Assembly: GCA_948466315.1 (NCBI GenBank)
Contig: CAOJZZ010000004.1
Location: forward strand, 1 to 56,591
Length of the DNA: 56,591 nucleotides
Origin: an uncultured Mycoplasmatota bacterium
GTDB lineage: Bacteria; Bacillota_I; Bacilli_A; RF39; UBA660
Reading direction: 5' to 3'
The notes beneath the pieces are model-generated. The model was not told where the DNA came from and made no database searches. It saw only the letters and a list, made by a program, of their open reading frames with translations. The position numbers and the translations under genes were made by a program. Of the stretch, positions 38,433 to 56,591 are shown in pieces; the first letter of the stretch is position 1; each line of letters begins with the position of its first letter.

Positions 38433-39491
38433 ATGTTTTTTAAAAAGATTGATGAAAGAATAAAAGTATTATTTTTAATGATGTTATTATTGTTTGCTTT
38501 AGTTGTAGGAAGAGTTTTCTACATTCAAGTTATTGATTATAAAAAGCTAAATAAATATGCATCTAATTTGTGGAGTAGAGATTTACCAATAGAAGCTAAC
38601 AGAGGATTAATTAAGGACAGAAATGGAGTCGTTTTGGCCGATAACTTAACCACAACGAGTCTTGTATTAATTCCCAATCAAATAAAGAATAAAGATAAAA
38701 CAACTAAAGAATTAGCCGAAATATTAGGTGTAACTTATGATGAGATGAAAGAACATGTTTACAAAAAAGCATCAATTGAAAGAGTTCATCCTGAAGGAAG
38801 AAGATTATCTTATGATGTAGCAGAAAAAATATCAGCTTTGGAACTACCTGGTGTATATCTTGTAAAAGAAGCTAAGAGATATTATCCTTATGGTAATATG
38901 TTATCACATAGTCTAGGTTATGTTGGTATAGATAATCAAGGTCTATCAGGATTAGAATTAAAATATGATAAATATTTAACTGGAAAAAGTGGTGCTATTA
39001 AGTATTTTTCTGACGCCAAAGGTAATAAACTAAATTTATCAGAAATTTATGTTGAGCCTCAATCAGGTATGAATATAAATTTAACCATAGATATAAATAT
39101 CCAAAAATCCATAGAACGAGAACTAGATAATATTGTAGATATGTTCTCACCAGAAATGGCATTAGCTATTGTTATGAATCCCAAAACAGGGGAAATTTTA
39201 GGTATGGGTTCACGACCTGATTATGACCCTAATAAATATAAAGATTATTCTCAAGAAATACTAAGTCGTAACTTACCAATTTGGTCTTCTTATGAACCAG
39301 GTTCAACTTTCAAAGTAGTTACAATGGCTACAGCTGTAGAAGAGAAAGTAGTAGACTTAGAAAAGGATCATTTCTATGATGGGGGTAGTGTTAATGTAGA
39401 AGGTTCGGTATTAAAATGTTGGAAGGCAGGGGGGCATGGAGAACAAACATTTCTTCAGGTATTACAAAATTCTTGTAACCATGGGTTGTAG
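38433..39491 (+). CDS. spoVD: SpoVD-type class B PBP, segment 1 of 3 (interrupted at the SxN motif)
   Basis: These 352 codons encode the N-terminal part of a class B PBP: a membrane helix (VLFLMMLLLFALVVGRVFYI), 'IEANRGLIKDRNGVVLADN', a dimerisation domain, and the start of the transpeptidase with S-T-F-K at residues 291-294. Codons 347-349 give S-C-N, the second catalytic motif; then the frame reads His-Gly-Leu-stop where 'PGFVKLG' should follow. That continuation is found at 45953. As it stands this gene makes a dead, truncated protein. Position in the dcw cluster after pbpB, the single PASTA domain and the rebuilt length of 634 residues point to SpoVD, the sporulation cortex/SEDS-partner PBP, rather than PbpB. 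RBS GAGGTG. Confidence 0.9.
   Translation: MFFKKIDERIKVLFLMMLLLFALVVGRVFYIQVIDYKKLNKYASNLWSRDLPIEANRGLIKDRNGVVLADNLTTTSLVLIPNQIKNKDKTTKELAEILGVTYDEMKEHVYKKASIERVHPEGRRLSYDVAEKISALELPGVYLVKEAKRYYPYGNMLSHSLGYVGIDNQGLSGLELKYDKYLTGKSGAIKYFSDAKGNKLNLSEIYVEPQSGMNINLTIDINIQKSIERELDNIVDMFSPEMALAIVMNPKTGEILGMGSRPDYDPNKYKDYSQEILSRNLPIWSSYEPGSTFKVVTMATAVEEKVVDLEKDHFYDGGSVNVEGSVLKCWKAGGHGEQTFLQVLQNSCNHGL
39477..39487 (+). repeat. attL-like junction of element 1
   Basis: AACCATGGGTT, near-palindromic, immediately after the SxN serine-cysteine codons. Its partner is AACCCAGGGTT at 45949. The exact crossover dinucleotide must lie in the shared AACC or GGGTT. Confidence 0.7.
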
Positions 39492-39494
39492 CAA

Positions 39495-39557
39495 AAGATA
39501 CTTTATTAATAGCAAAAAATCAATCATTATAACAATATTAAAGTATCTTGTTTTTAT
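39495..39557 (+). terminator. Terminator at the left end of element 1
   Basis: AAGATACTTTA (39495-39505) pairs perfectly with TAAAGTATCTT (39539-39549), followed by GTTTTTAT. It sits directly after the junction and would stop transcription coming from the interrupted spoVD. Confidence 0.75.
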
Positions 39558-39676
39558 ATTGGTAATTAGTTGATTTCATTAAGTAACATAAAATCATTAT
39601 ACTAATTTTAAAATGCTTTCTAAATTAATACTTAAGATATTATCACAGATTAATCATACAACAAACTATCAAAATA

Positions 39677-39832
39677 TTGACAAAATGAATTAATTATGAT
39701 ATAATATGCCCACATAATGAAAGTACAGCAAGCATATAATATAATTGATATGAAGGTGGTGTTTTTAAATTTTACAATAATTTAAAAAAATAACATTTTT
39801 ATCTTGCAAAATTTAAATTTATAGTGTATAAT
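39677..39832 (+). promoter_or_regulatory. Two tandem promoters of the element 1 cargo
   Basis: P1: TTGACA 39677-39682 and TATAAT 39700-39705 (17-base spacing), followed by GCCCACATAATGA. P2: TTGCAA 39804-39809 and TATAAT 39827-39832 (17-base spacing) within TTTATAGTGTATAAT. Similar sequence blocks occur upstream of the element 2 cargo. The cargo is therefore expressed from the element itself, independently of the host gene. Confidence 0.75.
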
Positions 39833-39861
39833 ATGTACACAAAAAAGGGGGATATTTAATT

Positions 39862-42800
39862 ATGAAAAGAATAAAACTAGTTGTAGCAACTATGGTTTTA
39901 TTAGGCATAGTGTCTATAACAACAGGGGTAGGCTTACAATTAAAATTATCTAAGGAGAAAAATATAATCGAAACGACTCCTTATGGCTATTTAGCATATA
40001 ACACAGAAAAATATAGATATTTGTCTGATATAGAATATATAAAAGACAAAACATCTGTTGGTTGGGGAAATATTCTATTTGATAAGAATATTAATACTAA
40101 CATTAACAATGGATTAATAACAGTAAATATAGACGGTGAGAAAAAATCGTTTATGAAAGGGGTACTTGCTCATGCTACTTCTACAGTGGTTTATGATATA
40201 AGTTCCTATAATTATGATTACTTTACAGCATATCTAGGAGTAGATGCTAGTGCTGGGAATAACGGAAACGGGGTAAAATTCTTAATTTATACATCAAAGG
40301 ATGGTGAAAATTGGGATTTACAAACAGCTGCAAAACCACCAGTATTAAAAGGAACTAGTGAATCTATCTTTGTAAAAATAGATATCAAAGAGGCAAAATA
40401 CTTAAAATTATATGCACATAATAATGGTAATGATTCATCTGATCATGCAGTTTATGCAGATGCTAAATTAATCAAAGAAGATTATGTAGAAGATACTAGT
40501 AAAGTAGATTTTATAAAAACAGTAGCAGAATATGATGAAATAATTAAAAGTAAAAATATATCAGATCAATTAGCAACAAATGAATTAACAATTCTTCAAA
40601 GAGAATTTGTTAATAGTGTGGGGTATGATTTATTACAATCTTTTGTAAAATACAATGATGAAAATAAGGAAGCTATATCATGGTTAATGAATGATGTAGA
40701 AAACTTAAGATTATATATTGTTGGTGGAAAACCAGAGGGAAGTTATATAAACTCAATTAGAGTTTTAGCAGAATTACATAGTAAATATAAAGCAGATTTT
40801 GAAAATAAAGAAGTAACAAAGTATGGAACAGTATTAGGCGATTTATACAAGAAAATGGCTATTACACTATCTTTAACACACTCAAAACAAGTAGCTTTAT
40901 GGATGCAACCAAGTGCACCAGAGAATCAATCTAATGCAGTAGATCGTTATGCAATTTATAAAAAAATGCACAAAGATGGACATTTTGTAGCATCAGAAAG
41001 CTTAGATATTACTAAGTGGTTTGAAGAGTATAGTGTTGAAGAGATGAGATTTGTATTAAATAATATTATCGATGATGAAGAAATACTATGGTTAAATGAA
41101 TATACACAAAAACAAATGGATGCTCATCCAAAAGAAACATGGAAATATTTAACACCACACCCATATATGGCATATGTATGGCCAAACTATGCAAAAGAAG
41201 AATTTCATGATCCAGCAAGAAAGAATTACTGGGATGAGAAATTCGATGGAATATTCAGTAAATATAATGTAACATATAGAAAAGGATTATATAAAGTATG
41301 GATGAACTTTAGAAATGAGTTCGGAACAGGAGCTGTATGTGGTGGAATATCAAAAACAGGATCTAACATAAGAGCAGTACATGGTATACCAGCAGCTGTC
41401 ATTGGACAACCAGGACATGCAGCAATAGTTTACTATACAAAAGATGCCCAAGGAAGAGGATATTGGGGAATCGATAACGATGTAAGTGGATGGACCCAAT
41501 CAGAAAAAAGCGAAAGAATGCTATTAGGATGGGGAAATGCTTCTTATACTAAAGGATCTTATCAAGTTGTATATATGGCATTAGCTCAAGAAGTGCTAAA
41601 CGACTATTCAACATTCGAAAAAAGTAAGGAAATGGTTTTAGTAGGACAATCTTATAAAGGCGATTTAAGAAAACAAGAAGAAGCATATAGAAAAGCATTA
41701 GAAATTCAACCATTGAATATAGATGCTTGGTACGAGTTAATAAATGTATATAATGAAAGTGAAAATAAAACAGAAGAAGATTATTATAACTTAGCAAAAG
41801 AGTTAGCAGAAGAATTAAAATACTTCCCATTACCAATGTATCAATTAACAAACTTAATTAAACCAAAATTAACAAGTGTAGAAAGCTCTTATAAATTTAC
41901 ATTATTACAAACTAGAATTTTAAAAGAAGCAAGTGTAGTACCTAATAATACAACAGACAACTATTATGTATATCAACCATCAATAACAAGAACAGAGGCA
42001 AATTACTTATTAGGAATATTAGATAGCACAATAGCATCCTTCTCATTTGATGGTGAAGATGCAGGAAAAATTGTATTATCAAGCCGCTTTGATGGAAATG
42101 GAGTACGTTGGGACTATAGCCTAGATGGCAAGAATACATGGAAAGAAGTAGCGTTTACTGCTAATGAAGAACATAAATTAAAATTAACAGAAAAAGAACT
42201 TGAAAGTATAAGCGTAGATAATGATATTTATGTACATATAGTTGGAGTAAATTACAACGAAGAAAATCTTTATAAAATAGATATAAAAGAACAAAGCTTA
42301 CCATCAACTATTTATAATAATGATTTGGAAAATAAAGTAATTGGTGCAACTGATTATATGGAATGGAAAATGGTTAGTAATGTATCAACAGCAAAATCAA
42401 AAGCAAAAGCTAAATCAAGTAATGGTTGGACATCATTTAAAGATAGTAAACCAGACTTAACTGGAGATAAAACAGTATCTGTAAGATGTGGAAAACATGG
42501 TGTTTATTTAGAAAGTGAAGCTGTAACATTAGCTTACACAAAAGACGTAGTAGATGAAAAAAGAAAATATATTTCAATAGATCATCTATCAATTCACTCA
42601 GTATCTACTCAAGCAACTGCTCAAGGAAGACATGCCAAAAACGCAATCGACGGAAATATTTATACAAATTGGCATTCTGCTTGGAATGGAAGCGATAAAG
42701 AAAAATATATTGTAATTAAATTAGATGAAGTTAAAAAATTAACAGCTTTAGAATATCTTCCATTAGATGGTGGAAATGGAAAAATCAAAAATGCAGTTAT

Positions 42801-43842
42801 CTCAGTAAGTATGGATGGTGAAAACTGGAAAGAAGTAGTATCTAGTACAAATTGGGCTTATAATATGACAACTAAAAGCGTAGACTTTGAACCAACAGAA
42901 GCACAATATATTAAAATAGTAGGTAAAGAAACACAATCAGCATCAAGCTCAAACAGCTTTATAGCAGCTAAAATGTTTAACCTATATGAAGATGCTAGCA
43001 ATAAAGTAGAAAAACCAACTGCTGAAATAGCATACAGTACTAAAGAACAAACAAATCAAAATGTAACTGTTACTTTAGTAAATCCAAGTAAAAAAATAAC
43101 AATTACTAATAATGAAGGTAAAGATACATATACCTTTACAGAAAATGGCACATTTACTTTTGAATTTATTGATGAAGCTGGTAATAAAGGTAGTGCAACT
43201 GCAACAGTTGATTGGATAAAAAAAGATGATGATTCATCTAATAAACCAGGACAAGATGATGATAACAACAATGATAACAAACCAGGTCAGGACGATGATA
43301 ACAACAATGATAATAAACCAGGACAAGATGATGATAACAACAATGATAATAAACCAGGACAAGATGATAACAAACCAGGTCAGGATGACGATAACAACAA
43401 TGATAATAAACCAGGACAAGATGATAACAAACCAGGTCAGGACGACGATAACAACAATGATAATAAACCAGGACAAGATGATAACAAACCAGGTCAGGAC
43501 GATGATAACAACAATGATAACAAACCAGGTCAGGATGATGATAACAACAATGATAACAAACCAGGTCAGGATGATAATAATAATGTTAATAAACCTATAG
43601 TAGATGATAATGGTAATACCAATACACCAAATGATACTACTAATACAAACAAGCCAACTGTAGACAATAATACAAATGGTTTAACCTCAAACAAAAATAA
43701 TTCAATTAACACAGAGGTTCCAAATACTAGTGTAGATAATGATATTTATATATATGTATTTACTATTTTAATAATCCTTATCATCTTAAGTATTACTTAC
43801 TTTTATATAAGAAAAACTAATATTAAAAAAGTTGAAAAATAG
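39862..43842 (+). CDS. Element 1 cargo: secreted, wall-anchored multidomain protein with a Cys-His-Asp core
   Basis: A 1326-residue protein. Domains in order: an N-terminal signal helix (LVVATMVLLGIVSITTGVGL); an NPCBM-like carbohydrate-binding domain at about 50-210 ('GVLAHATSTVVYDISSYNYD', 'YLKLYAHNNGNDSSDHAVYA'); a central helical/catalytic part with 'FGTGAVCGGISKTGSNI', 'GQPGHAAIVYY' and 'YWGIDNDVSGW', a Cys, His, Asp order like transglutaminase/papain-fold enzymes; TPR-like helices; an F5/8 type C domain at about 910-1050 ('KNAIDGNIYTNWHSAWNG'); an Ig-like domain; a GQDDDNNNDNKP repeat stalk; and 'EVPNTS' plus a hydrophobic helix and a basic tail, a variant sorting signal. It likely acts on glycoproteins or peptidoglycan outside the cell. 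Function inferred; strong GGGGG ribosome site. Confidence 0.75.
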   Translation: MKRIKLVVATMVLLGIVSITTGVGLQLKLSKEKNIIETTPYGYLAYNTEKYRYLSDIEYIKDKTSVGWGNILFDKNINTNINNGLITVNIDGEKKSFMKGVLAHATSTVVYDISSYNYDYFTAYLGVDASAGNNGNGVKFLIYTSKDGENWDLQTAAKPPVLKGTSESIFVKIDIKEAKYLKLYAHNNGNDSSDHAVYADAKLIKEDYVEDTSKVDFIKTVAEYDEIIKSKNISDQLATNELTILQREFVNSVGYDLLQSFVKYNDENKEAISWLMNDVENLRLYIVGGKPEGSYINSIRVLAELHSKYKADFENKEVTKYGTVLGDLYKKMAITLSLTHSKQVALWMQPSAPENQSNAVDRYAIYKKMHKDGHFVASESLDITKWFEEYSVEEMRFVLNNIIDDEEILWLNEYTQKQMDAHPKETWKYLTPHPYMAYVWPNYAKEEFHDPARKNYWDEKFDGIFSKYNVTYRKGLYKVWMNFRNEFGTGAVCGGISKTGSNIRAVHGIPAAVIGQPGHAAIVYYTKDAQGRGYWGIDNDVSGWTQSEKSERMLLGWGNASYTKGSYQVVYMALAQEVLNDYSTFEKSKEMVLVGQSYKGDLRKQEEAYRKALEIQPLNIDAWYELINVYNESENKTEEDYYNLAKELAEELKYFPLPMYQLTNLIKPKLTSVESSYKFTLLQTRILKEASVVPNNTTDNYYVYQPSITRTEANYLLGILDSTIASFSFDGEDAGKIVLSSRFDGNGVRWDYSLDGKNTWKEVAFTANEEHKLKLTEKELESISVDNDIYVHIVGVNYNEENLYKIDIKEQSLPSTIYNNDLENKVIGATDYMEWKMVSNVSTAKSKAKAKSSNGWTSFKDSKPDLTGDKTVSVRCGKHGVYLESEAVTLAYTKDVVDEKRKYISIDHLSIHSVSTQATAQGRHAKNAIDGNIYTNWHSAWNGSDKEKYIVIKLDEVKKLTALEYLPLDGGNGKIKNAVISVSMDGENWKEVVSSTNWAYNMTTKSVDFEPTEAQYIKIVGKETQSASSSNSFIAAKMFNLYEDASNKVEKPTAEIAYSTKEQTNQNVTVTLVNPSKKITITNNEGKDTYTFTENGTFTFEFIDEAGNKGSATATVDWIKKDDDSSNKPGQDDDNNNDNKPGQDDDNNNDNKPGQDDDNNNDNKPGQDDNKPGQDDDNNNDNKPGQDDNKPGQDDDNNNDNKPGQDDNKPGQDDDNNNDNKPGQDDDNNNDNKPGQDDNNNVNKPIVDDNGNTNTPNDTTNTNKPTVDNNTNGLTSNKNNSINTEVPNTSVDNDIYIYVFTILIILIILSITYFYIRKTNIKKVEK
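43237..43590 (+). repeat. Tandem repeats encoding an Asp/Asn-rich stalk
   Basis: Units of 36 and 21 bases alternate, encoding NKPGQDDDNNND and NKPGQDD variants, about eleven units in all. Units differ only at a few third-codon positions, so copy number is prone to slip. The repeat forms the wall-spanning stalk of the cargo protein. Confidence 0.9.
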
Positions 43843-43888
43843 AATCTATTAATACTATAATGATATTAACATAATTACTAATAAAAAT

Positions 43889-43930
43889 ATATCTTACTAT
43901 TTCAATATTCGAATAGTAAGATATTTTTAA
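43889..43930 (+). terminator. Terminator of the element 1 cargo
   Basis: ATATCTTACTATT pairs with AATAGTAAGATAT (14-bp-scale stem), followed by TTTTTAA. Confidence 0.85.
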
Positions 43931-44023
43931 TTTATATAAAAAATACACATTTTAAAAGAATCTAAATATTAGGTTCTAATTTTTATTATAACTTAATAGT
44001 CTTAATCAAAGGAGGAACATATT

Positions 44024-44218
44024 TTGAATATAGTTGATAAATATCATAGCTTTACTGATTCAAAAGAATTGCCTAAAGACTATTTAATTTTAAAATTAAG
44101 AATGTATTTTAATAAAGAATTATATCAAAAAAGAATTATTTCTTTTGAAATCTATAATAACATGCAAAATCTATTAATAAAAAAAATGAATAAAATAATT
44201 ATGGATAATAGAGTATAA
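44024..44218 (+). CDS. Small protein upstream of recombinase 1, possible directionality factor
   Basis: A 64-residue, highly charged helical protein with a TTG start behind AAAGGAGG. Its C-terminal part 'YQKRIISFEIYNNMQNLLIK' has a SHOCT-like two-helix look. It stands 48 bases before the recombinase gene, the same relative place as the 52-residue protein in element 2, to which its C-terminal half is weakly similar. Small partners encoded next to serine integrases often control excision (recombination directionality factors), so that role is a reasonable hypothesis but has no direct support. Confidence 0.55.
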   Translation: MNIVDKYHSFTDSKELPKDYLILKLRMYFNKELYQKRIISFEIYNNMQNLLIKKMNKIIMDNRV

Positions 44219-44266
44219 ATAATTAAAATATATTTTTAATATTTTAATAAAAGGGGATGAGACTCA

Positions 44267-45901
44267 ATGGATATAATAAAAGCAAGAAAGGAATTATTAC
44301 TTGGAAAAACTATATATGATATGAACTTAAGAGTAGTTGATTACGGCAGGGTATCAACAGATAAAGATAATCAAGTAAATTCCCTTACTAATCAGATTAA
44401 CTATTTTAATGAAATGATCTCTAGTATCAAAAACTGGACTCATATAAGAAGTTATAGTGATGAAGGAATAAGTGGAACGAGAGTAGAAAAAAGAGAAGAA
44501 TTTTTAAGAATGATAGAAGATGCAAGACTTGGCAAAATTGATTTAATATTAACTAAAGAAGTATCTAGATTTGCTCGTAACACTATTGATAGTATTAGTT
44601 ATACTCAGACCTTATTAAAGTATGGTGTAATAGTCTTTTTTATCTCAGATAATATAAATACTCTTTACCCTGATAGTGAATTTAGACTAACTCTTATGGC
44701 GAGTATGGCTCAAGATGAAGTTAGAAAGTTATCAGAAAGAGTTAAGTTTGGTATTAAAAGAAGTATTAAAGATAGAAAGGTAGGCGGAGGGGGACTTTAT
44801 GGTTATATAAAAAAAGATTGTAAACTAATAATAAATGAGAAAGAAGCTCCTGCTGTTAGGATGCTATATTCCTTATATTCAAGTGGAGAATATGGTTTTA
44901 AGAAAATAGGAGAAGAACTAGCAAGTAATGGTTATTACACTAAAAAGGGCAAGATTTTTAGTGATACTACTCTAAAGAAAATGTTAAATAATCCAAGATA
45001 TAAAGGTTATTATACAGCTAATATGTCAGAAGTAGAAGATTATAAAACTCATAGAAAAGTAAAAAAGCCTAAAGACGAATGGATTATCGAAAAAGATAAA
45101 AAAGGAGATGTTCCCGCTATTGTCAGCGAAGAACTATGGGAAAAAGCTAATGAAATATATAAAGAAAAAAATAATAAATGGAATAAAAACGTTTTAAATA
45201 AGGAGTATTATTTAGAAAATAGAAATTATACTTCTAAAATATTTTGTATAGAACATAAAAAAACATTTATCAGAAGTGCCAGTGGTAAAAGAAAAAACAA
45301 TCCAGTATGGCAATGTGGTGAGTATTTAAGAAACGGAATAAAGGGTTGTGCTTCTCCACGTTTATTTGAAAAAGACTTAAATAATATTTTTTCTAAAATA
45401 ATAGAAAATATTATTGATAATAAAGAAACACTTTTGAATATGATAATAAACGATTATATTACTCTAATAAAAGATAATAATACAAATAATAAGCAGTATT
45501 ATTTAAAACAAAAACTACAAGAACAACAAATATATAAAGATAAATTATTCGATATGTTTTTAAAGGAATTAATAACAGATATTGAGTTCTTAGAAAGAAA
45601 TAATAAAATATCCTCAGAAATTTCCACTATTAAAAAAACTATAAATAAATTAGAAGCTAATCAAAATTCTTTAGAGTATTATGAAAAGGAAAAATCTAAA
45701 ATAAGCAAAGAAATCTTACTCTTATTAAATATAGAAGATAATATAGGAAAATATTTTAACTTATTTATTAATAAAGTTTTAGTTAGTAAGATAAATAATA
45801 ATAGAAAAAATATTAAATTAACCATAATATTTAATTATAAATACCCTAATAAAGATGTAGAATTTATATATAACAACAAAGATATCTTAATAACAAATTA
45901 A
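44267..45901 (+). CDS. Large serine recombinase of element 1
   Basis: A 544-residue protein. The N-terminal resolvase domain has 'VDYGRVSTDKDNQVNSL' (catalytic Ser about residue 30), 'YSDEGISGTRVEKREEF', 'LILTKEVSRFARNT' and 'MASMAQDEVRKLSERV'. Then come the recombinase domain ('MLNNPRYKGYYTANMSEVED'), a zinc ribbon with 'FCIEHKKTF' and 'WQCGEYLRNGIKGCASP', a coiled coil, and a C-terminal beta tail. It is closely related to the recombinase at 48448. Such enzymes integrate and excise DNA at short att sites through a Ser-DNA linkage. It ends 48 bases before the right junction, as expected for an integrase adjacent to its att site. RBS AAGGGGATGAG. Confidence 0.95.
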   Translation: MDIIKARKELLLGKTIYDMNLRVVDYGRVSTDKDNQVNSLTNQINYFNEMISSIKNWTHIRSYSDEGISGTRVEKREEFLRMIEDARLGKIDLILTKEVSRFARNTIDSISYTQTLLKYGVIVFFISDNINTLYPDSEFRLTLMASMAQDEVRKLSERVKFGIKRSIKDRKVGGGGLYGYIKKDCKLIINEKEAPAVRMLYSLYSSGEYGFKKIGEELASNGYYTKKGKIFSDTTLKKMLNNPRYKGYYTANMSEVEDYKTHRKVKKPKDEWIIEKDKKGDVPAIVSEELWEKANEIYKEKNNKWNKNVLNKEYYLENRNYTSKIFCIEHKKTFIRSASGKRKNNPVWQCGEYLRNGIKGCASPRLFEKDLNNIFSKIIENIIDNKETLLNMIINDYITLIKDNNTNNKQYYLKQKLQEQQIYKDKLFDMFLKELITDIEFLERNNKISSEISTIKKTINKLEANQNSLEYYEKEKSKISKEILLLLNIEDNIGKYFNLFINKVLVSKINNNRKNIKLTIIFNYKYPNKDVEFIYNNKDILITN

Positions 45902-45948
45902 AAAACGATTATTTTTTAGCTAAAAGTATCTCTTGCTTTACTCAAAGA

Positions 45949-45959
45949 AACCCAGGGTT
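45949..45959 (+). repeat. attR-like junction of element 1
   Basis: AACCCAGGGTT is a perfect odd palindrome around the central A and continues directly into spoVD codons for G-F-V-K-L-G. Compare 39477-39487. Confidence 0.7.
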
Positions 45960-46164
45960 TGTAAAATTAGGACAATTACTTGGTAAAAAACGTTTATTCT
46001 CCTACTTAGATAAGTTTGGTTTTGGTTCTAAAACTGGAATAGATTTAAATGGAGAGGGTAAAGGTATTATTTTTAATCTTGATAAAGTAGGTAATGTCGA
46101 ACTATCTACTACTGCCTTTGGTCAAGGAGTAAGTGTAACTCCTATTCATCTTACTGTCTATTAA
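45953..46164 (+). CDS. spoVD: SpoVD-type PBP, segment 2 of 3 (middle fragment)
   Basis: The fragment of about 66 host codons encodes 'PGFVKLGQLLGKKRLFSYLD', 'KFGFGSKTGIDLNGEG' and 'TTAFGQGVSVTPI', exactly the stretch between the SxN motif and the KTG motif of class B PBPs. It has no start codon or ribosome binding site of its own and stops at 46164, 16 bases into element 2. It has no internal stops and keeps all conserved positions, arguing that it is maintained rather than decaying. It makes sense only when joined to segment 1 and segment 3. Confidence 0.88.
46138..46148 (+). repeat. attL-like junction of element 2
   Basis: ACTCCTATTCA, inside the conserved V-T-P-I-Q codons. Its partner is ACTACTATACA at 50081; identity is 9 of 11, with shared ACT, CTAT and CA. 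Confidence 0.65.
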
Positions 46165-46226
46165 ATGATACCTTTGCTCTAACGAAAGGAATAACTAGTA
46201 AATATACAAAGAAATTATAAATATAT

Positions 46227-46321
46227 TTGGCAAGAGAATTAATTTTATAGTGTATAATTTTGTATTATTTAGGGATTAAATAGCAAAAACGTTTGCTATT
46301 TTTGTAATTATGTTGTATAAT
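46227..46321 (+). promoter_or_regulatory. Promoter, attenuator-like hairpin and second promoter of the element 2 cargo
   Basis: P1: TTGGCA (46227-46232) with TATAAT (46253-46258) in TTTATAGTGTATAAT, like P2 of element 1. A perfect 10-bp hairpin AAATAGCAAA / TTTGCTATTT (46278-46301), followed by TTG, would end P1 transcripts after about 40 bases. P2: TATAAT at 46316-46321, followed by ACCCACTTAATGA, resembles P1 of element 1. The short terminated RNA or attenuation is a hypothesis. Confidence 0.6.
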
Positions 46322-46347
46322 AATACCCACTTAATGAGGGGGATAGA

Positions 46348-48033
46348 ATGAAAAAGAAATTATTAGAGAAAGCAAGATCGATTATATTCTTAGGAGGACT
46401 AAGTACCTTATGTATTACAACTAGCTTATCTTCACTTTCTAAGTCACAATATAAAATAGTAAAAGAATCAAAAATAGGTACAGTATTAGAAAAAGAACCA
46501 GTACTAGCTAACTATTTTACAACTGGTGAATGGTTATCAGAAGATGCCCTACTAAGAATAAATCAAATCTGTAATATACCAGTAGCACCAGTAACAACAC
46601 CATATGATCCAAGGTATTTAGATATTTTAGGTATTAATAAAGAAAATACTAAAAAAACTTATGAAAGTTTACAAACTATTAAAGCAAATAGAAAACATCG
46701 TAATACTAAATATTATGATGAAGAAAAAGATGATATTAAATGGGAATTATTAGCTGAAGATTGTTATACAAGAAGTGTTAATTATAAAGAACCAGACAAT
46801 AATGGTATAATATTAGACCAACCATTTTCAAAAGAAGAAATAAAAGAAAAAATAGCTAATATAAAACAACTTACTCAAAATCTATGTAAAGATTTTAAAG
46901 AATTCGATATAAAGGAATTTGCCTGTACCTTAGCAGATTATAAATTCATCAAAAAATTAGACTATGTTAGTACAGCTTTAGCTTATACAACTAATGATAC
47001 TGTTACATATAATACTTTATTTACACATAGCTTGACAAAAGATGAAATAAAACCTATAGATTTGCATGAGAATTTTCATATTGCAGTAAATGGATGTAGT
47101 GATAAAAATACTGGTTTATCATCTAAAAAAAGGGGTATTAGTGTTCAAAATAAAGATGATAAAAACGTTAGTAATGATAATTTACTATGTATAGATAACT
47201 CTTCTTATAATTATAATAACAGTTATAGTTATAATTTTTTAGAAGAAATATATGCAGAGCTTTATAGTAATAGTGTTTTAAAAACAAAACAACAAAACTA
47301 TATAAATCATGATGAAATACTAAATGCTCTTCAAATAAGTTTAGGATTAAGGTCAAATTACCAAATAGATGATATTTTACAAGATTTAGTCTACCATGAC
47401 CCATTATCATTTATTAAACGTTTCCCAAGCTTTGGAGAAAGAAAGGAAGACTATGTTGTTGATAATTGTAAAATGTTAAAAGCTTATGATATCTTATTAA
47501 GTGATAAGTCACTATATAGTCAACTTCTAGAAAATTCTGATCTATCAGATATTTATAACTATGATAGTGTTAATAGTCTAGCCTTATTTGCTAGTAGTCA
47601 ATTAACTAAAAACTATTTTAATAATTTAATTGTTATGAACGAAATGCATTCAAAAGATATGGAACTAGAAGATAATTATTATATGATAAACTTATTTGAG
47701 AATACCTTAAAAAATACTTTAAAAGCTATTAAAGAAGTTAATCCAAAGTTATCAATAAGAATTAATGATACAGCATTTTATCAAACTAGAACTACTTTTT
47801 TAGGTTATTTAAGTGATAAATATAAACTTTTTCCAAAAGATGTTGAAAGTAAATACTATAGAGAATATAGTTATACAGTTCCACCAAAAGATTACCAGGG
47901 ACCATCATTTTTCGATGACAATAAAAGGTTATATTACATGACTTTATTAAAAGAAGGAGAAAATCACAATATTAAAGCACCATACAATCTACCAATAGGA
48001 ACTTCATATAAAGTCCACAAAAAAACAAAATAA
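46348..48033 (+). CDS. Element 2 cargo: secreted HExxH metalloprotease-like protein
   Basis: A 561-residue protein with an N-terminal signal or anchor region (ARSIIFLGGLSTLCITTSL). A zinc-binding motif 'IDLHENFHIAVNG' (HENFH = HExxH) lies near residue 235, followed about 60 residues later by 'NFLEEIYAELYS', where the EExxAE acids are plausible third ligands of a gluzincin. The rest is helical with many Asn and Lys, ending 'IGTSYKVHKKTK'. It is probably exported and proteolytic. I do not recognise a named peptidase family. GAGGGGGATAG sets the start. It is the only cargo gene of element 2 and has its own promoter and terminators. Confidence 0.65.
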   Translation: MKKKLLEKARSIIFLGGLSTLCITTSLSSLSKSQYKIVKESKIGTVLEKEPVLANYFTTGEWLSEDALLRINQICNIPVAPVTTPYDPRYLDILGINKENTKKTYESLQTIKANRKHRNTKYYDEEKDDIKWELLAEDCYTRSVNYKEPDNNGIILDQPFSKEEIKEKIANIKQLTQNLCKDFKEFDIKEFACTLADYKFIKKLDYVSTALAYTTNDTVTYNTLFTHSLTKDEIKPIDLHENFHIAVNGCSDKNTGLSSKKRGISVQNKDDKNVSNDNLLCIDNSSYNYNNSYSYNFLEEIYAELYSNSVLKTKQQNYINHDEILNALQISLGLRSNYQIDDILQDLVYHDPLSFIKRFPSFGERKEDYVVDNCKMLKAYDILLSDKSLYSQLLENSDLSDIYNYDSVNSLALFASSQLTKNYFNNLIVMNEMHSKDMELEDNYYMINLFENTLKNTLKAIKEVNPKLSIRINDTAFYQTRTTFLGYLSDKYKLFPKDVESKYYREYSYTVPPKDYQGPSFFDDNKRLYYMTLLKEGENHNIKAPYNLPIGTSYKVHKKTK

Positions 48034-48069
48034 ATTAATATGAAAAGTAATTCAGCTTATTTATATTAG

Positions 48070-48137
48070 ACTGCCTTCAAAATTTTTCGACTTTGAAGGC
48101 AGTATGAGAACTAGTAAAAGACTAGTTCTTTTTTTTG
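48070..48137 (+). terminator. Double terminator after the element 2 cargo
   Basis: First hairpin: ACTGCCTTCAAA / TTTGAAGGCAGT (48070-48103), a perfect 12-bp stem. Second: AGAACTAGT / ACTAGTTCT (48107-48129) with eight T's. Together they insulate the recombinase genes from the cargo transcript. Confidence 0.9.
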
Positions 48138-48253
48138 TATTCTGATAATAAACTAAAAAGAAGGGATTAATTATATAACTAAAATTACTAATAGAAAGAA
48201 ATAATTAAAATAATTTATCATATTTATAATATTGATTATAAAAGGGGAATAAT

Positions 48254-48412
48254 ATGGATTTAATAAACAAAATATCATCACGAATTATTGAATTAGAATT
48301 ACAGATAAAACTTCTAGATTATTTAAAAAGAACAGAAGAAATAGAAAGTGATATGTATGATTATCTAGTAAATAAATTACTTATAAAAATAAATCAAGAA
48401 AAGAAAAGTTAA
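48254..48412 (+). CDS. Small protein upstream of recombinase 2, possible directionality factor
   Basis: A 52-residue helical protein (begins MDLINKISSRIIELELQIKL, ends NKLLIKINQEKKS) starting at ATG 48254 behind AAAGGGG. It stands 35 bases before the recombinase 2 start and is the positional counterpart of the 64-residue protein in element 1. The two share a 'YxKRxxxxE...L..KLLIK'-like C-terminal helix pattern. Regulation of excision is an attractive but untested role. Confidence 0.55.
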   Translation: MDLINKISSRIIELELQIKLLDYLKRTEEIESDMYDYLVNKLLIKINQEKKS

Positions 48413-48447
48413 TATAGTATAAATATTTACTAAATTAGGAGGCTGAT

Positions 48448-50079
48448 ATTATAGATTTATATACAGTAAGAAATAATATCCTAAAAGGAAAATCTATTCA
48501 AGAGTTAAATTTACGAGTATGCTTTTATGCTAGAGTATCAACAGAAAAAGATGAACAACTTCACTCATTAACTGCTCAAATATCTTTTTTTAAAGATTAT
48601 ATAAAAAAAATTCCTAACTGGAAATACATTGATGCCTATATAGATGAGGGAATTAGCGGAACTAGAGTAAAAAAACGTGATGCTTTTTTAAAAATGATAA
48701 ATGATGCTAAAAACAATAAATTTGATTTAATTCTTACTAAAGAAATTTCAAGGTTTTCAAGAAATACTCTAGATAGTATTAAATATACTCAAGAGTTATT
48801 AGAAAATGGAGTAGGTGTTTATTTTTTAAATGATAATATTAATACAATATTACCAGACTCTGAATTAAGATTAACTATAATGGCTAGTGTTGCCCAAGAT
48901 GAGGTTAGAAAGCTATCAGAAAGGGTTTCCTTTGGTATGAGACGCAGTATAGAAAATGGTGTTGTATTAGGCTCTTCTAATATTTATGGTTTTACTAAAG
49001 AACATGGCAAATTAATAATAGATCAAAAAGAATCTCTTATGATTAAACTAATTTTTGATAAATATGCTAATACAAATGATGGCTTATCAAAAATATCAAA
49101 AGATTTATATCTTCTCGGTTATAAAAGTAAAACAGGTAAAAGAATAGATCCAACTATATTAACAAGAATTATCAAAAACCCTAAGTACAAAGGATATTAC
49201 TGTGGTAATAAAAGTAAAATAATTGACTATCGTAACAAAAAAAAGAAAAGTCTTGACCAATCAGAATGGATAATTTATAAAGATCAAAAAAATATTCCCG
49301 CTATTATTAGTGAAGAATTATGGGAAAAGGCTAATGAAAAATTATTAAAAAGACAAAAAAGTATTAAAAACAAAGTACAAGATAAAGCAATCTTTCAAAA
49401 TAGATATACTTATTCTGGAAAATTATATTGCCATAATCATCAATTAACTTATCACAGAAATGGTGCTGGTAAAAGAAAAGAAAATCCAGTTTGGGAATGC
49501 CAAGTATATCGTAAAGAAGGATTAAAAAGTTGTAATAGCCCAAGAATATATGAAAAGGAATTAGATAAAATTTTTTATTATATATTTTCAAAAATTCTAA
49601 AAAGTAATCAAAAAATAACAGAAGATTTATTAACTGAGTGTCAAACTTATTTAAAAAATCAAAATAGTATGACAAAAATAAAAGAATTAAAAACAAAACT
49701 AGAAGAACTTGAATTAAAAAAGAAAAAATTATTAGAATTACTAATAGATGATATCATAGAAAAAAAAGAATATCAGAGCCAAATTGTTTTATTGAAAAAG
49801 AAATCAGATGAGTATAATAGAAAAATAAAAGAAATAAAAAACATTTCAAATAATAAGCATACCATTAGAAAAAAGATCACCAACCTACAAAATAGTTTTA
49901 AAAATTGTCTTCAAGATAAAGAATGTTTTAAATCATTTTTTACTGAAATAGTTGACTATATTATAGTTTGTCAAAAAGATAGTATTAATAAAAAACAATC
50001 AATTTTAAAAATAGTTCTTAAAACTGGTAATAATTTAATAGTAACCAGTAATAATTTAGGTAAGGAGTATCATTTTTGA
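48448..50079 (+). CDS. Large serine recombinase of element 2 (non-canonical start)
   Basis: The full frame gives about 543 residues, the same length as recombinase 1. It includes the essential N-terminus 'VCFYARVSTEKDEQLHSL' with the catalytic Ser, 'YIDEGISGTRVKKRDAFL', 'LILTKEISRFSRNT', 'MASVAQDEVRKLSERVSFGM', the recombinase domain ('IIKNPKYKGYYCGNKSK'), zinc-ribbon cysteines ('YCHNHQLTYH', 'WECQVYRKEGLKSCNSP') and a coiled coil. The first ATG (48694) lies after the catalytic serine, so it cannot be the true start. AGGAGG at 48437-48442 points to ATT (48448) or ATA (48451). A rare start codon would keep recombinase levels low. The stop lies directly beside the right junction. Confidence 0.9.
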   Translation: MIDLYTVRNNILKGKSIQELNLRVCFYARVSTEKDEQLHSLTAQISFFKDYIKKIPNWKYIDAYIDEGISGTRVKKRDAFLKMINDAKNNKFDLILTKEISRFSRNTLDSIKYTQELLENGVGVYFLNDNINTILPDSELRLTIMASVAQDEVRKLSERVSFGMRRSIENGVVLGSSNIYGFTKEHGKLIIDQKESLMIKLIFDKYANTNDGLSKISKDLYLLGYKSKTGKRIDPTILTRIIKNPKYKGYYCGNKSKIIDYRNKKKKSLDQSEWIIYKDQKNIPAIISEELWEKANEKLLKRQKSIKNKVQDKAIFQNRYTYSGKLYCHNHQLTYHRNGAGKRKENPVWECQVYRKEGLKSCNSPRIYEKELDKIFYYIFSKILKSNQKITEDLLTECQTYLKNQNSMTKIKELKTKLEELELKKKKLLELLIDDIIEKKEYQSQIVLLKKKSDEYNRKIKEIKNISNNKHTIRKKITNLQNSFKNCLQDKECFKSFFTEIVDYIIVCQKDSINKKQSILKIVLKTGNNLIVTSNNLGKEYHF

Positions 50080-50080
50080 G

Positions 50081-50091
50081 ACTACTATACA
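50081..50091 (+). repeat. attR-like junction of element 2
   Basis: ACTACTATACA, two bases after the recombinase stop codon begins, leading straight into spoVD codons for Q-V-T-A-V. Compare 46138-46148. Confidence 0.65.
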
Positions 50092-50752
50092 GCAAGTAAC
50101 AGCTGTTTCTGCAGTAGTTAATGGTGGTTATCTATATGAGCCATATATTGTAAAAAGTATTTCAGAAAATGAAACAAATACTATTATTAAGGAAAATAAT
50201 AAAAATTTAGTTCGTAAAGTAATCAGTAGTGACACCTCAAGGATTATGCGACACGCTCTAGAAAGTGTCGTGGCTAAAGGGGGAGGAAAATCAGCCTATA
50301 TTGAAGGATATCGAATTGGTGGTAAAACAGGAACAGCCCAAAAGGTAAAAGATGGCAGATATTTAGTTGGAAATTATATTATGTCCTTTATGGCTGTAGT
50401 ACCATCAAATGATCCAGAAGCAGTATTGTACTTAGCTATAGATAATCCTAAAAATACAGCCCTTTTATCTAGTTATACAACAACTCCGATTGCTAGAAGA
50501 ATCCTTCTAGATATAATAGATGCTTTAGGAATTGAAAAACAAGAAAATGCCATGCCTAAAGACTTAGAATGGACGGATAAAGTAACTTATGAAGTTCCAA
50601 ATGTAGTAGGAAAATCAGTTGATGAAGCTAAGAAATTATTATCAAACTTTACTATTGAATACTCAGGAACAGGAGAAACTGTTGTAGAACAATCACCTAA
50701 GGCTAAAGAAAAACTAGAAGATCAAGGAACTGTAAGGCTATTATTAGAATAA
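50092..50752 (+). CDS. spoVD: SpoVD-type PBP, segment 3 of 3 (KTG motif and PASTA domain)
   Basis: The segment continues 'QQVTAVSAVVNGGYLYEPYI' and contains the third transpeptidase motif K-T-G at 50324-50332 in 'IGGKTGTAQKVKDG', 'GNYIMSFMAVVPSNDPEAVL', and one PASTA domain ('VPNVVGKSVDEAKKLL' to 'QGTVRLLLE'). There is no start codon for the first part; an internal ATG at 50246 opens a shorter frame but would give a headless product. Joined to segments 1 and 2 it completes a 635-codon gene including stop. No frameshift or nonsense mutation is present, implying that selection acts on the assembled gene or that insertion is recent. Confidence 0.9.
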
Positions 50753-53771: not shown

Positions 53772-54767
53772 ATGAGTAAAAAGATGGATAAATTATTGTT
53801 TATAGCAGTCATTATATTATCACTATTTGGTCTAGTAATGATTTACTCAGCATCCAGTATTTGGGCTGAATATAAATTTAATGATAGTTTTCATTACCTA
53901 AAATATCAAGGGGCTTTTTTAGTTATCGGAATAATGATTTTACTATTGTTTTCAAAAATAAACTATGAAGTTTATCATAATAAATCAAACACTTTACTAC
54001 TAAGTTGTATTATTCTTTTGGTATTAGTATTAATACCTGGAATTGGTAGTGTAAGAAATGGTAGTAGGTCTTGGTTTGGAATCGGTCCTTTAGGTATTCA
54101 ACCCAGCGAATTTGCGAAATTAGCAGCCATCATTTTTGCTAGTAAATATTTATCTAATAGTAATAAATTTTTAAAAAGCTACAAAGAAGGCGTATTTCCT
54201 ATTTTAGGTATTACATTACTTTTATTTGGTTTAATCATGCTACAACCAGATTTAGGAACAGGAGTAATCCTAGTAATGTCTATTGTATCTTTACTATTTA
54301 TAGCAGGTGTAAATATGAAATTTTTCTTTGAAGTAGGCTTTTTAGGAGTAATAGGAATAGTGATTTTAATTATTATTGCTCCATATCGTATGGATAGAAT
54401 TACTTCTTTTATTGATCCGTGGAGTGATGCCTTAGGTACAGGCTTTCAAATTATTCAAAGTCTTTATGCCATTGGACCAGGAGGATTATTAGGTAATGGT
54501 TTTCAAAAATCAATTCAAAAACACTTTTATTTACCAGAACCACAAACAGATTTTATTTTTTCTATTATAGCCGAAGAATTTGGTGTAGTAGGAGCATTTA
54601 TTGTTGTAGGCCTTTTTTCAATAATACTTTGGCGTGGTATTAAAATAGCCTTAAATACCAAAGATGCCTTTGCTAAATATTTATCTTTTGGTATGATTTT
54701 TCAAATGATTTTTCAAACTCTCATGAATTTAATGGTTGTTATTGGAATGATACCAGTAACAGGGTAA
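53772..54767 (+). CDS. spoVE: SpoVE-type SEDS protein, truncated at the PVTG motif
   Basis: 331 codons of a SEDS glycosyltransferase: 'LVMIYSASSIWAEYKF', 'GIQPSEFAKLAAIIFASKYL', 'MLQPDLGTGVILVMSI', 'YLPEPQTDFIFSIIAEEFG' and finally 'NLMVVIGMIPVTG' followed at once by a stop. All SEDS proteins continue here with I-P-L-P-F-x-S-Y-G-G and a last membrane helix, as the intact FtsW at 9917-9960 does. The break is therefore inside the most conserved motif, exactly as in spoVD. Location after mraY and pairing with spoVD suggest SpoVE. The missing end is not in the window. RBS AAGGTGAT. Confidence 0.9.
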   Translation: MSKKMDKLLFIAVIILSLFGLVMIYSASSIWAEYKFNDSFHYLKYQGAFLVIGIMILLLFSKINYEVYHNKSNTLLLSCIILLVLVLIPGIGSVRNGSRSWFGIGPLGIQPSEFAKLAAIIFASKYLSNSNKFLKSYKEGVFPILGITLLLFGLIMLQPDLGTGVILVMSIVSLLFIAGVNMKFFFEVGFLGVIGIVILIIIAPYRMDRITSFIDPWSDALGTGFQIIQSLYAIGPGGLLGNGFQKSIQKHFYLPEPQTDFIFSIIAEEFGVVGAFIVVGLFSIILWRGIKIALNTKDAFAKYLSFGMIFQMIFQTLMNLMVVIGMIPVTG

Positions 54768-54858
54768 GTCCTGCTAAGTAACTGAAAACGACAATGAAAA
54801 TAAACCTTTATTTTATAAGGTATTTAGAGAACCTAATAAAAATATAAAAGATAAAAAA

Positions 54859-54887
54859 TTGACAAAAAAGTAAAAGTACATTAAAAT
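54859..54887 (+). promoter_or_regulatory. Promoter in the putative third element
   Basis: TTGACA (54859-54864) and TAAAAT (54882-54887) with 17-base spacing, about 100 bases before the first gene. Confidence 0.6.
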
Positions 54888-54988
54888 ATAAAATTTTGCA
54901 GATAAAAAATGGGGGTAATTTTACCATTACTGCAAAGAAGTTGATTTGAGCAATACCAAAGATACCTCACATATTTTTGGAGGAAATA

Positions 54989-55392
54989 ATGATAAGAAAA
55001 ATTGATGTAGGAAGTGTTTTTGGTACTGCCCAAAGAACTAGTTATGAATATATGAAATTACTAAAAGAAAAACATAAGGATGGACTTCACTCTTTACCTT
55101 TTGCTCATCATGAATCTAAGGTTGTTATGTATGAGTCAAATAAAATATATATTAATGGAGGAATAATTGATAATGAAATTATTACCCCTATATCTAATAG
55201 GAAATATTATAAAGAAAATTTAGATAAAATAGAAATTAGAAATAAAAACTTTTATTTTCTGTTAAAGATGATGGCTATATCTGTATATTTTATCACATGG
55301 CAAAAAATGAAAATGATATTAGTAATTCTTCTAAAAATCAATATTTTAGAAAAAGTGAAATGCAAAATTATTTTGATCCAAGAATATGGTAA
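54989..55392 (+). pseudogene. Unknown protein with a one-base frameshift
   Basis: Starting at ATG 54989 (GGAGG at the right distance), the frame encodes 'MIRKIDVGSVFGTAQRTSYE' and 'YINGGIIDNEIITPISNRKY'. Near 55258 (tattttctgtt) the coding sense shifts: adding one base restores 'SVKDDGYICIFYHMAKNEN' and 'FRKSEMQNYFDPRIW', ending at 55392, while the unshifted frame turns into low-sense sequence. It is therefore a broken gene or carries a sequencing error. No family recognised. A further His/Asn-rich open stretch at about 55393-55545 may be a remnant of the same gene or another. Confidence 0.5.
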
Positions 55393-55604
55393 ATTATAAC
55401 TATAATAGAAAATAATCACAATACTAATCATAATGGTCATCCTTATCATAAGAAAAATCACGAATATAGAATAGGACATATTTTTGCTAGGAAGAAAAAT
55501 AATTGTTTGGTACATAAATATTTCTATGAAATAACCTTACTTTAAAATCATGATTTGATAACTAATATAAAGAAGTTACCATTCAAGCAATTAGAGGTCA
55601 TTGC

Positions 55605-55754
55605 ATGAATATATTTGATAAAAATTATAAGAAAAAAGAGAAAGATATTATAAAATTTTCCCATACTATATTATTATCAAAATTATTGCTTTTAAATTAT
55701 GAATATAATGGTAAAACTATAACAGATTTTGAAAAAATAGAATTTGAGAAATAA
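55605..55754 (+). CDS. Small hypothetical protein
   Basis: A 49-residue helical protein (begins MNIFDKNYKKKEKDIIKFSH) with AGAGG upstream of its ATG. No family recognised. It may be a fragment of a larger mobile-element gene. Confidence 0.35.
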   Translation: MNIFDKNYKKKEKDIIKFSHTILLSKLLLLNYEYNGKTITDFEKIEFEK

Positions 55755-55853
55755 TTTTTTGCTCATTAACTACTATATAAATAAGAGTAAAAAATGTTAT
55801 AATGTATCTAACAGACAAATAGTAAGTTTGTTGAAATGATTGGAGATGTAATT

Positions 55854-56489
55854 ATGGCTTTTGATTATAAGAAAGAATATAAGGAATTTTATATGCCTAA
55901 GAATAAACCTAGTATTGTTGAAATTCCTAAAATGAATTATATTGCAGTTAGAGGACAAGGAAATCCAAATGATGAAAATGGAGATTATAAAAATACAATA
56001 GGTTTATTATATAATGTTGCTTATACAATTAAAATGAGTTATAAAGGTACTCATAAAATAGACGGCTTTTTTGAATATGTTGTTCCTCCATTAGAGGGAT
56101 TTTGGTGGCAGGAAAATACAAAAGGAATGGATTATAATAGAAAAGATGATATGAAATTTATTTCTATAATTAGATTGCCAGATTTTGTAACAAAAGAAGA
56201 TTTTATTTGGGCTACCCAAGAAGCAACAAAGAAAAAGAAACAAGACTTTTCAAGAGTTGAATTTTTAACTTATGATGAGGGGATTTGTGTTCAATGTATG
56301 CACAATGGTAGTTATGATGATGAACCTGCTACTGTTGAATTAATGCACAAATATATGAAAGAAAATGGATATGAATTAGATATAACAGATACTAGATACC
56401 ATCACGAAATATATTTAAGTGATCCAAGAAAATGCGATGTAAGTAAATTAAAGACAGTAATAAGACATCCAATTAAAAAGATTAAATAA
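55854..56489 (+). CDS. GyrI-like small-molecule-binding domain protein
   Basis: A 211-residue cytoplasmic protein with the GyrI-like fold signature: 'IVEIPKMNYIAVRGQGNPND', 'LLYNVAYTIKMSYKG', 'YVVPPLEGFWWQ', 'VEFLTYDEGICVQCMHNGSY', 'LMHKYMKENGYE' and 'HHEIYLSDPRKCD'. These stand-alone domains bind hydrophobic small molecules or dyes and are related to the effector domains of BmrR/SAV-type regulators; some hydrolyse cyclopropanoid or other xenobiotics. The start at 55854 follows TTGGAGAT; the open frame from 55836 has no better site. It is probably cargo of the putative third element and is unrelated to wall synthesis. Confidence 0.8.
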   Translation: MAFDYKKEYKEFYMPKNKPSIVEIPKMNYIAVRGQGNPNDENGDYKNTIGLLYNVAYTIKMSYKGTHKIDGFFEYVVPPLEGFWWQENTKGMDYNRKDDMKFISIIRLPDFVTKEDFIWATQEATKKKKQDFSRVEFLTYDEGICVQCMHNGSYDDEPATVELMHKYMKENGYELDITDTRYHHEIYLSDPRKCDVSKLKTVIRHPIKKIK

Positions 56490-56522
56490 TTACAAATTAC
56501 AAGTCAATTTAGGAGAGTAAGT

Positions 56523-56591
56523 ATGAAAAGGAAAGGGTTAATTATAATTGGCATTCTCACAATATTATTAGCATTTATGGATATAAGTGGA
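56523..56591 (+). CDS. Exported or membrane protein, 5' part only
   Basis: The 23 visible codons start with ATG after AGGAGAG and encode a signal-type helix, 'KRKGLIIIGILTILLAFMD'. The rest lies beyond the window, so nothing more can be said. Confidence 0.5.
   Translation, partial: MKRKGLIIIGILTILLAFMDISG

Follow-up and report, generated by a model that had tools for sequence, protein, structure and literature searches.

How can a gene that lies in three pieces still serve the making of a spore? The question is raised by contig CAOJZZ010000004.1 of an uncultured gut bacterium of the Mycoplasmatota (RF39; UBA660), the 56,591 nucleotides of which were analyzed as a whole and are referred to below as the window. 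Here spoVD, encoding a penicillin-binding protein (PBP) of the sporulation type, is interrupted by two elements, B and C, each with its own large serine recombinase (LSR). The genome (GCA_948466315.1; labelled G000) is a fragmented metagenome assembly, 71% complete, in which 20 LSR matches were found and the split genes were located locus by locus. We consider it probable that mobile elements have settled in mother-cell sporulation genes and that they are excised, probably in the mother cell, so that SpoVD and its partner SpoVE are rebuilt.

Identification of the split gene as spoVD

Joining the three host fragments (cf. Table 1) gave a protein of 634 amino acids followed by a stop codon, with no internal stops, in agreement with the preliminary description of this locus, which had claimed a 635-codon frame with STFK, SCN and KTG motifs and one PASTA domain. 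These motifs lie at residues 291, 347 and 493, respectively, and a domain search returned a PBP dimerisation domain, a transpeptidase domain and a single PASTA domain. The assignment to spoVD, also made in that description, was confirmed with the NCBIfam model TIGR02214 (spoVD_pbp), against which the joined protein scored 708 bits, exceeding the cut-off of 688. The intact class B PBP of the window reached just 343 bits with the same model, and these scores, with the domain content, identify the split gene as the copy for sporulation and the whole gene as the vegetative one. In Bacillus subtilis, spoVD is expressed in the mother cell. A sigma-E/K-like −10 motif (CATAnnnT) was present upstream of spoVD in 58 of 99 sequences, while 9.4 were expected from shuffled ones, a pattern in keeping with putative control by mother-cell sigma factors. 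A look for uninterrupted spoVD genes and empty sites in relatives, as had been proposed, was successful: homologues up to 87% identical align across both joints without a break, and the joined frame is therefore not due to chance.

The fragments and two inserts of like design were all found where they had been described, each insert holding an LSR, a small protein and a cargo gene, and the bounds assigned to both elements were upheld by the geometry of their attachment (att) sites. Recombination at the likely core AACC of element B restores the codons for S-C-N-P-G-F, and recombination at the likely core CA of element C those for T-P-I-Q-Q, with the frame kept in both cases. When the attP sites were reconstructed, each proved to be an inverted repeat with the core in its middle. 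For site B, the arms are complementary at 18 of 28 positions, which 48 of 8056 positions of the window attain; for site C, the figure is 16 of 28, which 476 of 8056 attain. Judged in the window alone, the apparent symmetry of site C is thus weak, and it is backed by the element ends conserved in the relatives read. Another core for site B, GGGTT, would also keep the frame and was ruled out in favor of AACC by the relatives and by the symmetry of the attP arms.

Both recombinases contain the domains PF00239 and PF07508, together with a Zn ribbon, and the R-V-S-T of the LSR catalytic region is invariant. LSR1 and LSR2 are about 40% identical and act at different cores, and interchange between the AACC and CA cores is not expected. 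The reading frame of LSR2 is open from about position 48448 and has no ATG, GTG or TTG at the homologous N-terminus; a putative start at an ATT or ATA codon after AGGAGG is implied.

A third interruption, in spoVE

SpoVE is the SEDS partner of SpoVD, and its gene adjoins spoVD and mraY. The spoVE fragment of the window ends at residue 331 of about 362, whereas the last 32 residues, which begin VTLPFLSYGGSS, are encoded on another contig of the assembly (C9), immediately following another LSR. When the two pieces are joined through a GG core, the SEDS protein is complete and its spoVE score increases from 382 to 434 bits; the joined protein remains under the TIGR02615 cut-off of 448.8, with spoVE still its best match. 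It appears that one element links the end of the window contig with contig C9. The earlier inventory of two elements was correct for spoVD, but had left this interruption on the same contig unlisted. The FtsW/RodA paralogues are intact.

Table 1. Positions of the split genes, intervening elements and intact paralogues (window coordinates unless a contig is given)
Feature	Position	Strand	Remarks
spoVD 5' fragment	38433..39480	+	Codons 1-349, including the STFK and S-C-N codons; 99% match to the joined query, stop right past the junction
spoVD middle fragment	45953..46148	+	
spoVD 3' fragment	50092..50752	+	KTG motif, one PASTA domain
Element B	39481..45952	+	6472 bp, in spoVD at the SxN codons
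attL core AACC, element B	39477..39480	+	Site B, SxN motif
attR core AACC, element B	45949..45952	+	
Left arm of site-B attP inverted repeat	39490..39504	+	AGCAAAAGATACTTT
Right arm of site-B attP inverted repeat	45923..45937	+	AAAGTATCTCTTGCT
Element B cargo	39862..43842	+	1326-aa secreted protein: NPCBM and F5/8-type C domains, acidic repeats, C-terminal membrane anchor
Small protein directly upstream of LSR1	44024..44218	+	Candidate recombination directionality factor
LSR1	44267..45901	+	LSR of element B, 544 aa
Element C	46149..50091	+	3943 bp, in spoVD at the TPIQ codons
attL core CA, element C	46147..46148	+	Site C, TPIQ motif
attR core CA, element C	50090..50091	+	
Left arm of site-C attP inverted repeat	46156..46170	+	GTCTATTAAATGATA
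Right arm of site-C attP inverted repeat	50068..50082	+	TATCATTTTTGAGAC
Element C cargo	46348..48033	+	561-aa secreted protein, HENFH (HExxH-like) motif
Small protein upstream of LSR2	48254..48412	+	Candidate directionality factor
LSR2	48448..50079	+	LSR of element C, 543 codons, non-standard start
spoVE 5' fragment	53772..54763	+	First 330-331 codons; downstream of mraY
spoVE last 32 codons	G000:C9:17572-17670	-	Adjoins another LSR
Third intervening element, left part	54764..56591	+	In spoVE; runs off the contig end
Control: vegetative class B PBP	25589..27736	+	PBP2B/PBP2X-type, two PASTA domains, intact
Control: vegetative SEDS paralogue	8912..10063	+	FtsW-type, intact

Insertion sites and recombinases in the family

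The family was sampled with 154 genomes, and the C-terminal part of spoVD was present in 123; the records found go under the names uncultured Bacilli, Tenericutes or Candidatus Onthousia. Classified by frame length, 86 of these genes are intact, while 13 are interrupted at site C and 12 at site B; the remaining 12 comprise at least 2 site-A splits (in G067 and G119, where one contig carries both the N-terminal part and an LSR) and about 10 ambiguous cases, mostly at contig ends. Hence, at least 27 of the 123 genomes, about a fifth, have a split spoVD. The three main sites fall on the codons for SxxK (site A; STFK, residue 291), SxN (site B; residue 347) and TPIQ (site C; residue 412), and two loci (L137 and L143) point to a further site near residue 403. 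One relative (G031) appears to carry elements at all three main sites, spread over two contigs. The simplest explanation for the position of the sites at catalytic motifs is that these codons are the most conserved target DNA. In contrast, the vegetative paralogue pbpB has no internal split in 134 genomes, its few truncated copies abutting contig ends (Fisher test, 26/123 for spoVD vs 0/134 for pbpB, p ~1e-9). Among 116 genomes, spoVE is split at the same C-terminal site as here in about 8 cases within contigs or near their ends and in 3 more at contig edges, and one genome (G008) has two sites in spoVE.

In a phylogenetic tree, recombinases that share an insertion site form a clade (100/99 for site A, 94/94 for site B, 100/100 for site C), and in the elements they almost touch the right junction and face it. 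Site-C recombinases with more than 93% identity to each other occur in hosts whose spoVD C-terminal parts average 60% identity, and LSR identity is uncorrelated with spoVD identity (rho 0.04, 231 pairs). Such near-identical recombinases in distant hosts indicate that the elements are mobile and have fixed addresses.

These data bear directly on the proposal, made in the preliminary description, that spoVD is controlled by double excision. Two independent LSR elements whose removal restores the gene are indeed present, but the pattern fits mobile elements on a conserved att site better than a control device, since LSR1 and LSR2 are so dissimilar, each has its own core and belongs to a site-specific clade, and near-identical recombinases occur where spoVD is only about 60% identical. 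A host-adaptive switch with two or three keys, in which several excisions would delay or guard cortex synthesis as proposed for the skin element of Clostridioides difficile, would agree with the two elements in spoVD plus one in the partner gene spoVE, with the apparent three in spoVD of one relative, and with the premature sigma-K activity that follows loss of skin (PMC5025042). Nevertheless, spoVD is uninterrupted in 86 of the 123 family members, its state differs inside a single genus (in g9 it is intact in G008, split at site B in G175 and at site C in G277), and the recombinases transfer between hosts independently of spoVD. We therefore regard such a switch as unlikely.

Two relatives (G201 and G202) have tandem insertions at site C. 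In G201, the site-C LSR (L192 9877-11919, G201:C29) is broken by IS21-type istA/istB genes, and the second tandem element has an intact LSR. Another genome, G064, carries an attP-like site with the C-terminal part of an LSR only (L189 4964-5000, G064:C14), while its spoVD is intact; an ABC transporter system is common to this locus and the G201 tandem element.

Is the function of the split genes retained?

Fragments decaying with stop codons in relatives had been named as evidence that the gene is dispensable. However, the host coding parts of the listed split spoVD genes contain no premature stops, and the stops flagged in one of them (L097) sit at the junction. For those split-gene pairs that have the lowest synonymous divergence (dS) or high amino acid identity, the ratio of nonsynonymous to synonymous substitutions (dN/dS) was about 0.04-0.2, values for which recent insertion could also account in some of the cases, and most pairs were too distant for the calculation. 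Furthermore, sporulation-type sigma-factor genes are intact in the split genomes, including sigK in the present one, and yabG is intact in most of them.

It might be argued that the insertions are simply selfish, i.e., that the lineage gave up sporulation, that the genes became dispensable, and that the fragments are decaying, with any excision being incidental. The elements are indeed horizontally mobile and polymorphic within genera, about a fifth of the family genomes are without any spoVD match, and one relative's LSR has been broken by the IS21-type insertion mentioned above. Yet the absence of premature stops, the low dN/dS values in the closest pairs and the retention of the sigma-factor genes and, mostly, of yabG all speak against this explanation, as does the fact that sporulation copies are struck and vegetative paralogues spared. 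On balance, we find it rather improbable.

Proposed mechanism and timing of excision

The preferred reading, that mobile elements are removed from mother-cell genes to rebuild SpoVD and SpoVE, would work as follows. An LSR would insert a small mobile element into a mother-cell sporulation gene, always at the same highly conserved stretch, and would excise it when the gene is needed, probably together with the small protein encoded upstream, acting as a directionality factor; it is this excision that would let the element persist. Excision would most likely take place in the terminal mother cell, with SpoVD and SpoVE being rebuilt there. The elements would be retained in the forespore genome and inherited through it. 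In the present genome, a functional SpoVD would take two separate excisions, at AACC and at CA, and SpoVE a third.

In nearly all spoVD elements for which sufficient sequence precedes the LSR, a protein of 40-82 amino acids is encoded immediately before it. This protein gave no good match to any family and, by its position, is the best candidate for the directionality factor. In most site-C elements, the operon of the small open reading frame (ORF) and the LSR is preceded by a terminator-like hairpin with a T-run, so that simple read-through from the spoVD promoter seems unlikely in these elements. The leader upstream of the small ORF (L094, L112-L128) is strongly conserved; it contains hairpins and a T-run, part of it is complementary to the ribosome-binding region, and it might represent an attenuator. 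A leader-RNA switch was also considered for this region and rejected, since conservation extends to the hairpin, but not every site-C element preserves the longer structure.

Several observations weigh against excision in the mother cell as we propose it: (i) a sigma-E/K-like −10 motif occurs upstream of the small-ORF/LSR operon in 5 of 33 cases vs 7.6 expected, and is therefore not enriched; (ii) sporulation in this lineage is predicted from genes alone; (iii) a search of viral contigs for the attP sequence (site-C pattern) found none, and attP-like matches in genomes, considered as possible excised circles, turned out in most cases to be attL sites, tandem elements (in G201 and G202) or, in G064, an element placed elsewhere; and (iv) given the horizontal movement of the elements, the absence of decay may come partly from recent arrival.

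The timing could also be random, with excision and re-insertion in a growing population yielding a mixture of sporulating and non-sporulating cells independently of development. Such phase variation would be compatible with the failure to find a mother-cell promoter for the LSR operon, and the yabG element of Clostridium botulinum has been seen both integrated and excised in one culture (PMC10747680). On the other hand, serine integrases usually need a directionality factor for excision (PMC5595907), and none of the assemblies shows both states of spoVD, so we assign this explanation a low probability. Finally, an assembly or binning artefact, or the chimera against which the preliminary description had warned, could be suspected in a genome of 79 contigs but has a negligible chance of being the cause, because the same sites with orthologous recombinases recur in more than 20 other, independent assemblies, several of them on contigs of 60-148 kb.

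Comparison with known sporulation gene elements

Gene-intervening elements have been described in sigK, spoVFB, spoVR, spsM, gerE and yabG (PMC5595907, PMC6957869, PMC4191935, PMC5025042, PMC10747680). The kinship with those of sigK, spoVFB and spsM that had been suggested for this locus is apparent in the position inside a gene, the element's own recombinase, the short core and the exact restoration of the frame upon removal. Like skin in sigK of Bacillus and C. difficile, the elements split a mother-cell gene and bring their own LSR, and precise excision, which restores the gene in the case of skin (PMC5025042), would do so here; the C. difficile skin also has a small directionality factor, CD1234 (PMC5025042). 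Unlike skin, they reside in another gene, sigK being intact here, and no phage genes apart from the integrase were seen in those of the window. The gin element in gerE of Bacillus cereus ATCC10987 is likewise of non-phage nature and has an LSR and a short core in the coding sequence, for which an AA central dinucleotide was predicted; it also encodes a directionality factor (PMC5595907). However, gin is 28.6 kb long, carries three recombinases and affects one gene, whereas the present elements measure 3.9 and 6.5 kb, two of them share one gene, and further genes are split. In the case of yin, found integrated and excised in culture in C. botulinum V73 (PMC10747680), the target gene yabG is also split in the present genome, though yin was described as unique to one strain and gene, and here the pattern extends over many genes. 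The vfbin element of spoVFB, the spoVR element and SP-beta in spsM also split mother-cell genes and have cognate recombination units (PMC6957869, PMC4191935), but none of them is in spoVD or spoVE, and they use one site per gene as described.

The recombinases showed their best NCBIfam resemblance to CcrB and CcrC, the Ccr recombinases of staphylococcal cassette chromosome (SCC) elements, with which the present elements also share the occurrence in tandem at one site. Since they scored 100-128 bits, far below the cut-off of 900, and since targets and gene content differ, an SCC identity was rejected. A prophage origin was dismissed as well, because only the LSRs had a clear match in PHROGs (as integrase) and no structural or replication phage genes were found. 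The relatives of the LSRs in IMG/VR are at most 55% identical over part of their length, and none lies beside spoVD.

As had been supposed, no element in spoVD was found in the literature, and none in spoVE either, the search covering open papers, with subscription papers outside its scope. Elements of this kind were already known. As far as could be searched, the novelty lies in which genes are hit, in how many sites a single gene offers, in the pairing of recombinase clades with sites and in how densely sporulation genes are affected. Known rearrangements of sporulation genes mostly involve one element per gene, in contrast to the recurrent invasion of cortex synthase genes, at fixed catalytic codons, in this widespread uncultured family. 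Genome surveys can miss sporulation genes that are split in this way, a possible example being a survey of Bacilli in which spoVD was reported as reduced or absent in order RF39 (PMC10868615). The family is also a rich natural source of site-specific recombinases whose att sites are mapped, and it allows tests of why mobile elements favor genes that only a doomed cell requires.

Further split genes and cargo

Elsewhere in the genome, yabG is split (L006 5876-16247, G000:C1), and between its parts lie two LSRs together with genes for a sigma-factor-like protein and for a 1011-residue protein that contains a dockerin domain. A cotD-like coat gene, identified by eye and having no Pfam match, is split by about 9 kb (L002 5884-14870, G000:C3) comprising apparent tandem elements, each with an LSR; an attP-like junction lies between the two. 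A gene for a LysM/peptidoglycan-binding protein is interrupted too (L004), the cargo being DNA methyltransferases and an OLD-like ATPase, possibly defence genes. At the loci L004, L005 and L012, recombinases are followed by C-terminal parts of LysM and collagen-like proteins, among them another LysM protein besides the one just mentioned. Judging from the type of gene, the split LysM and collagen-like genes would have a role in sporulation.

Tentatively, spore making in this family of gut Bacilli could be pictured as a simultaneous reassembly of the mother-cell genome at many places. In this picture, spoVD would need as many as three excisions and spoVE one or two, further ones would fall in yabG, cotD and genes of the spore surface, and every excision would have its own site-specific recombinase. 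The cortex synthase pair SpoVD-SpoVE would be unavailable until several independent excisions had occurred.

An Rfam search of the window gave no match. The 561-residue cargo protein of element C had no match in Pfam, NCBIfam, PHROGs or PDB, and its HENFH motif would make it a possible metallopeptidase. The cargo varies from element to element: the C9 side of the spoVE element (G000:C9:17572-31096) carries genes for a two-component system and an ABC-type permease.

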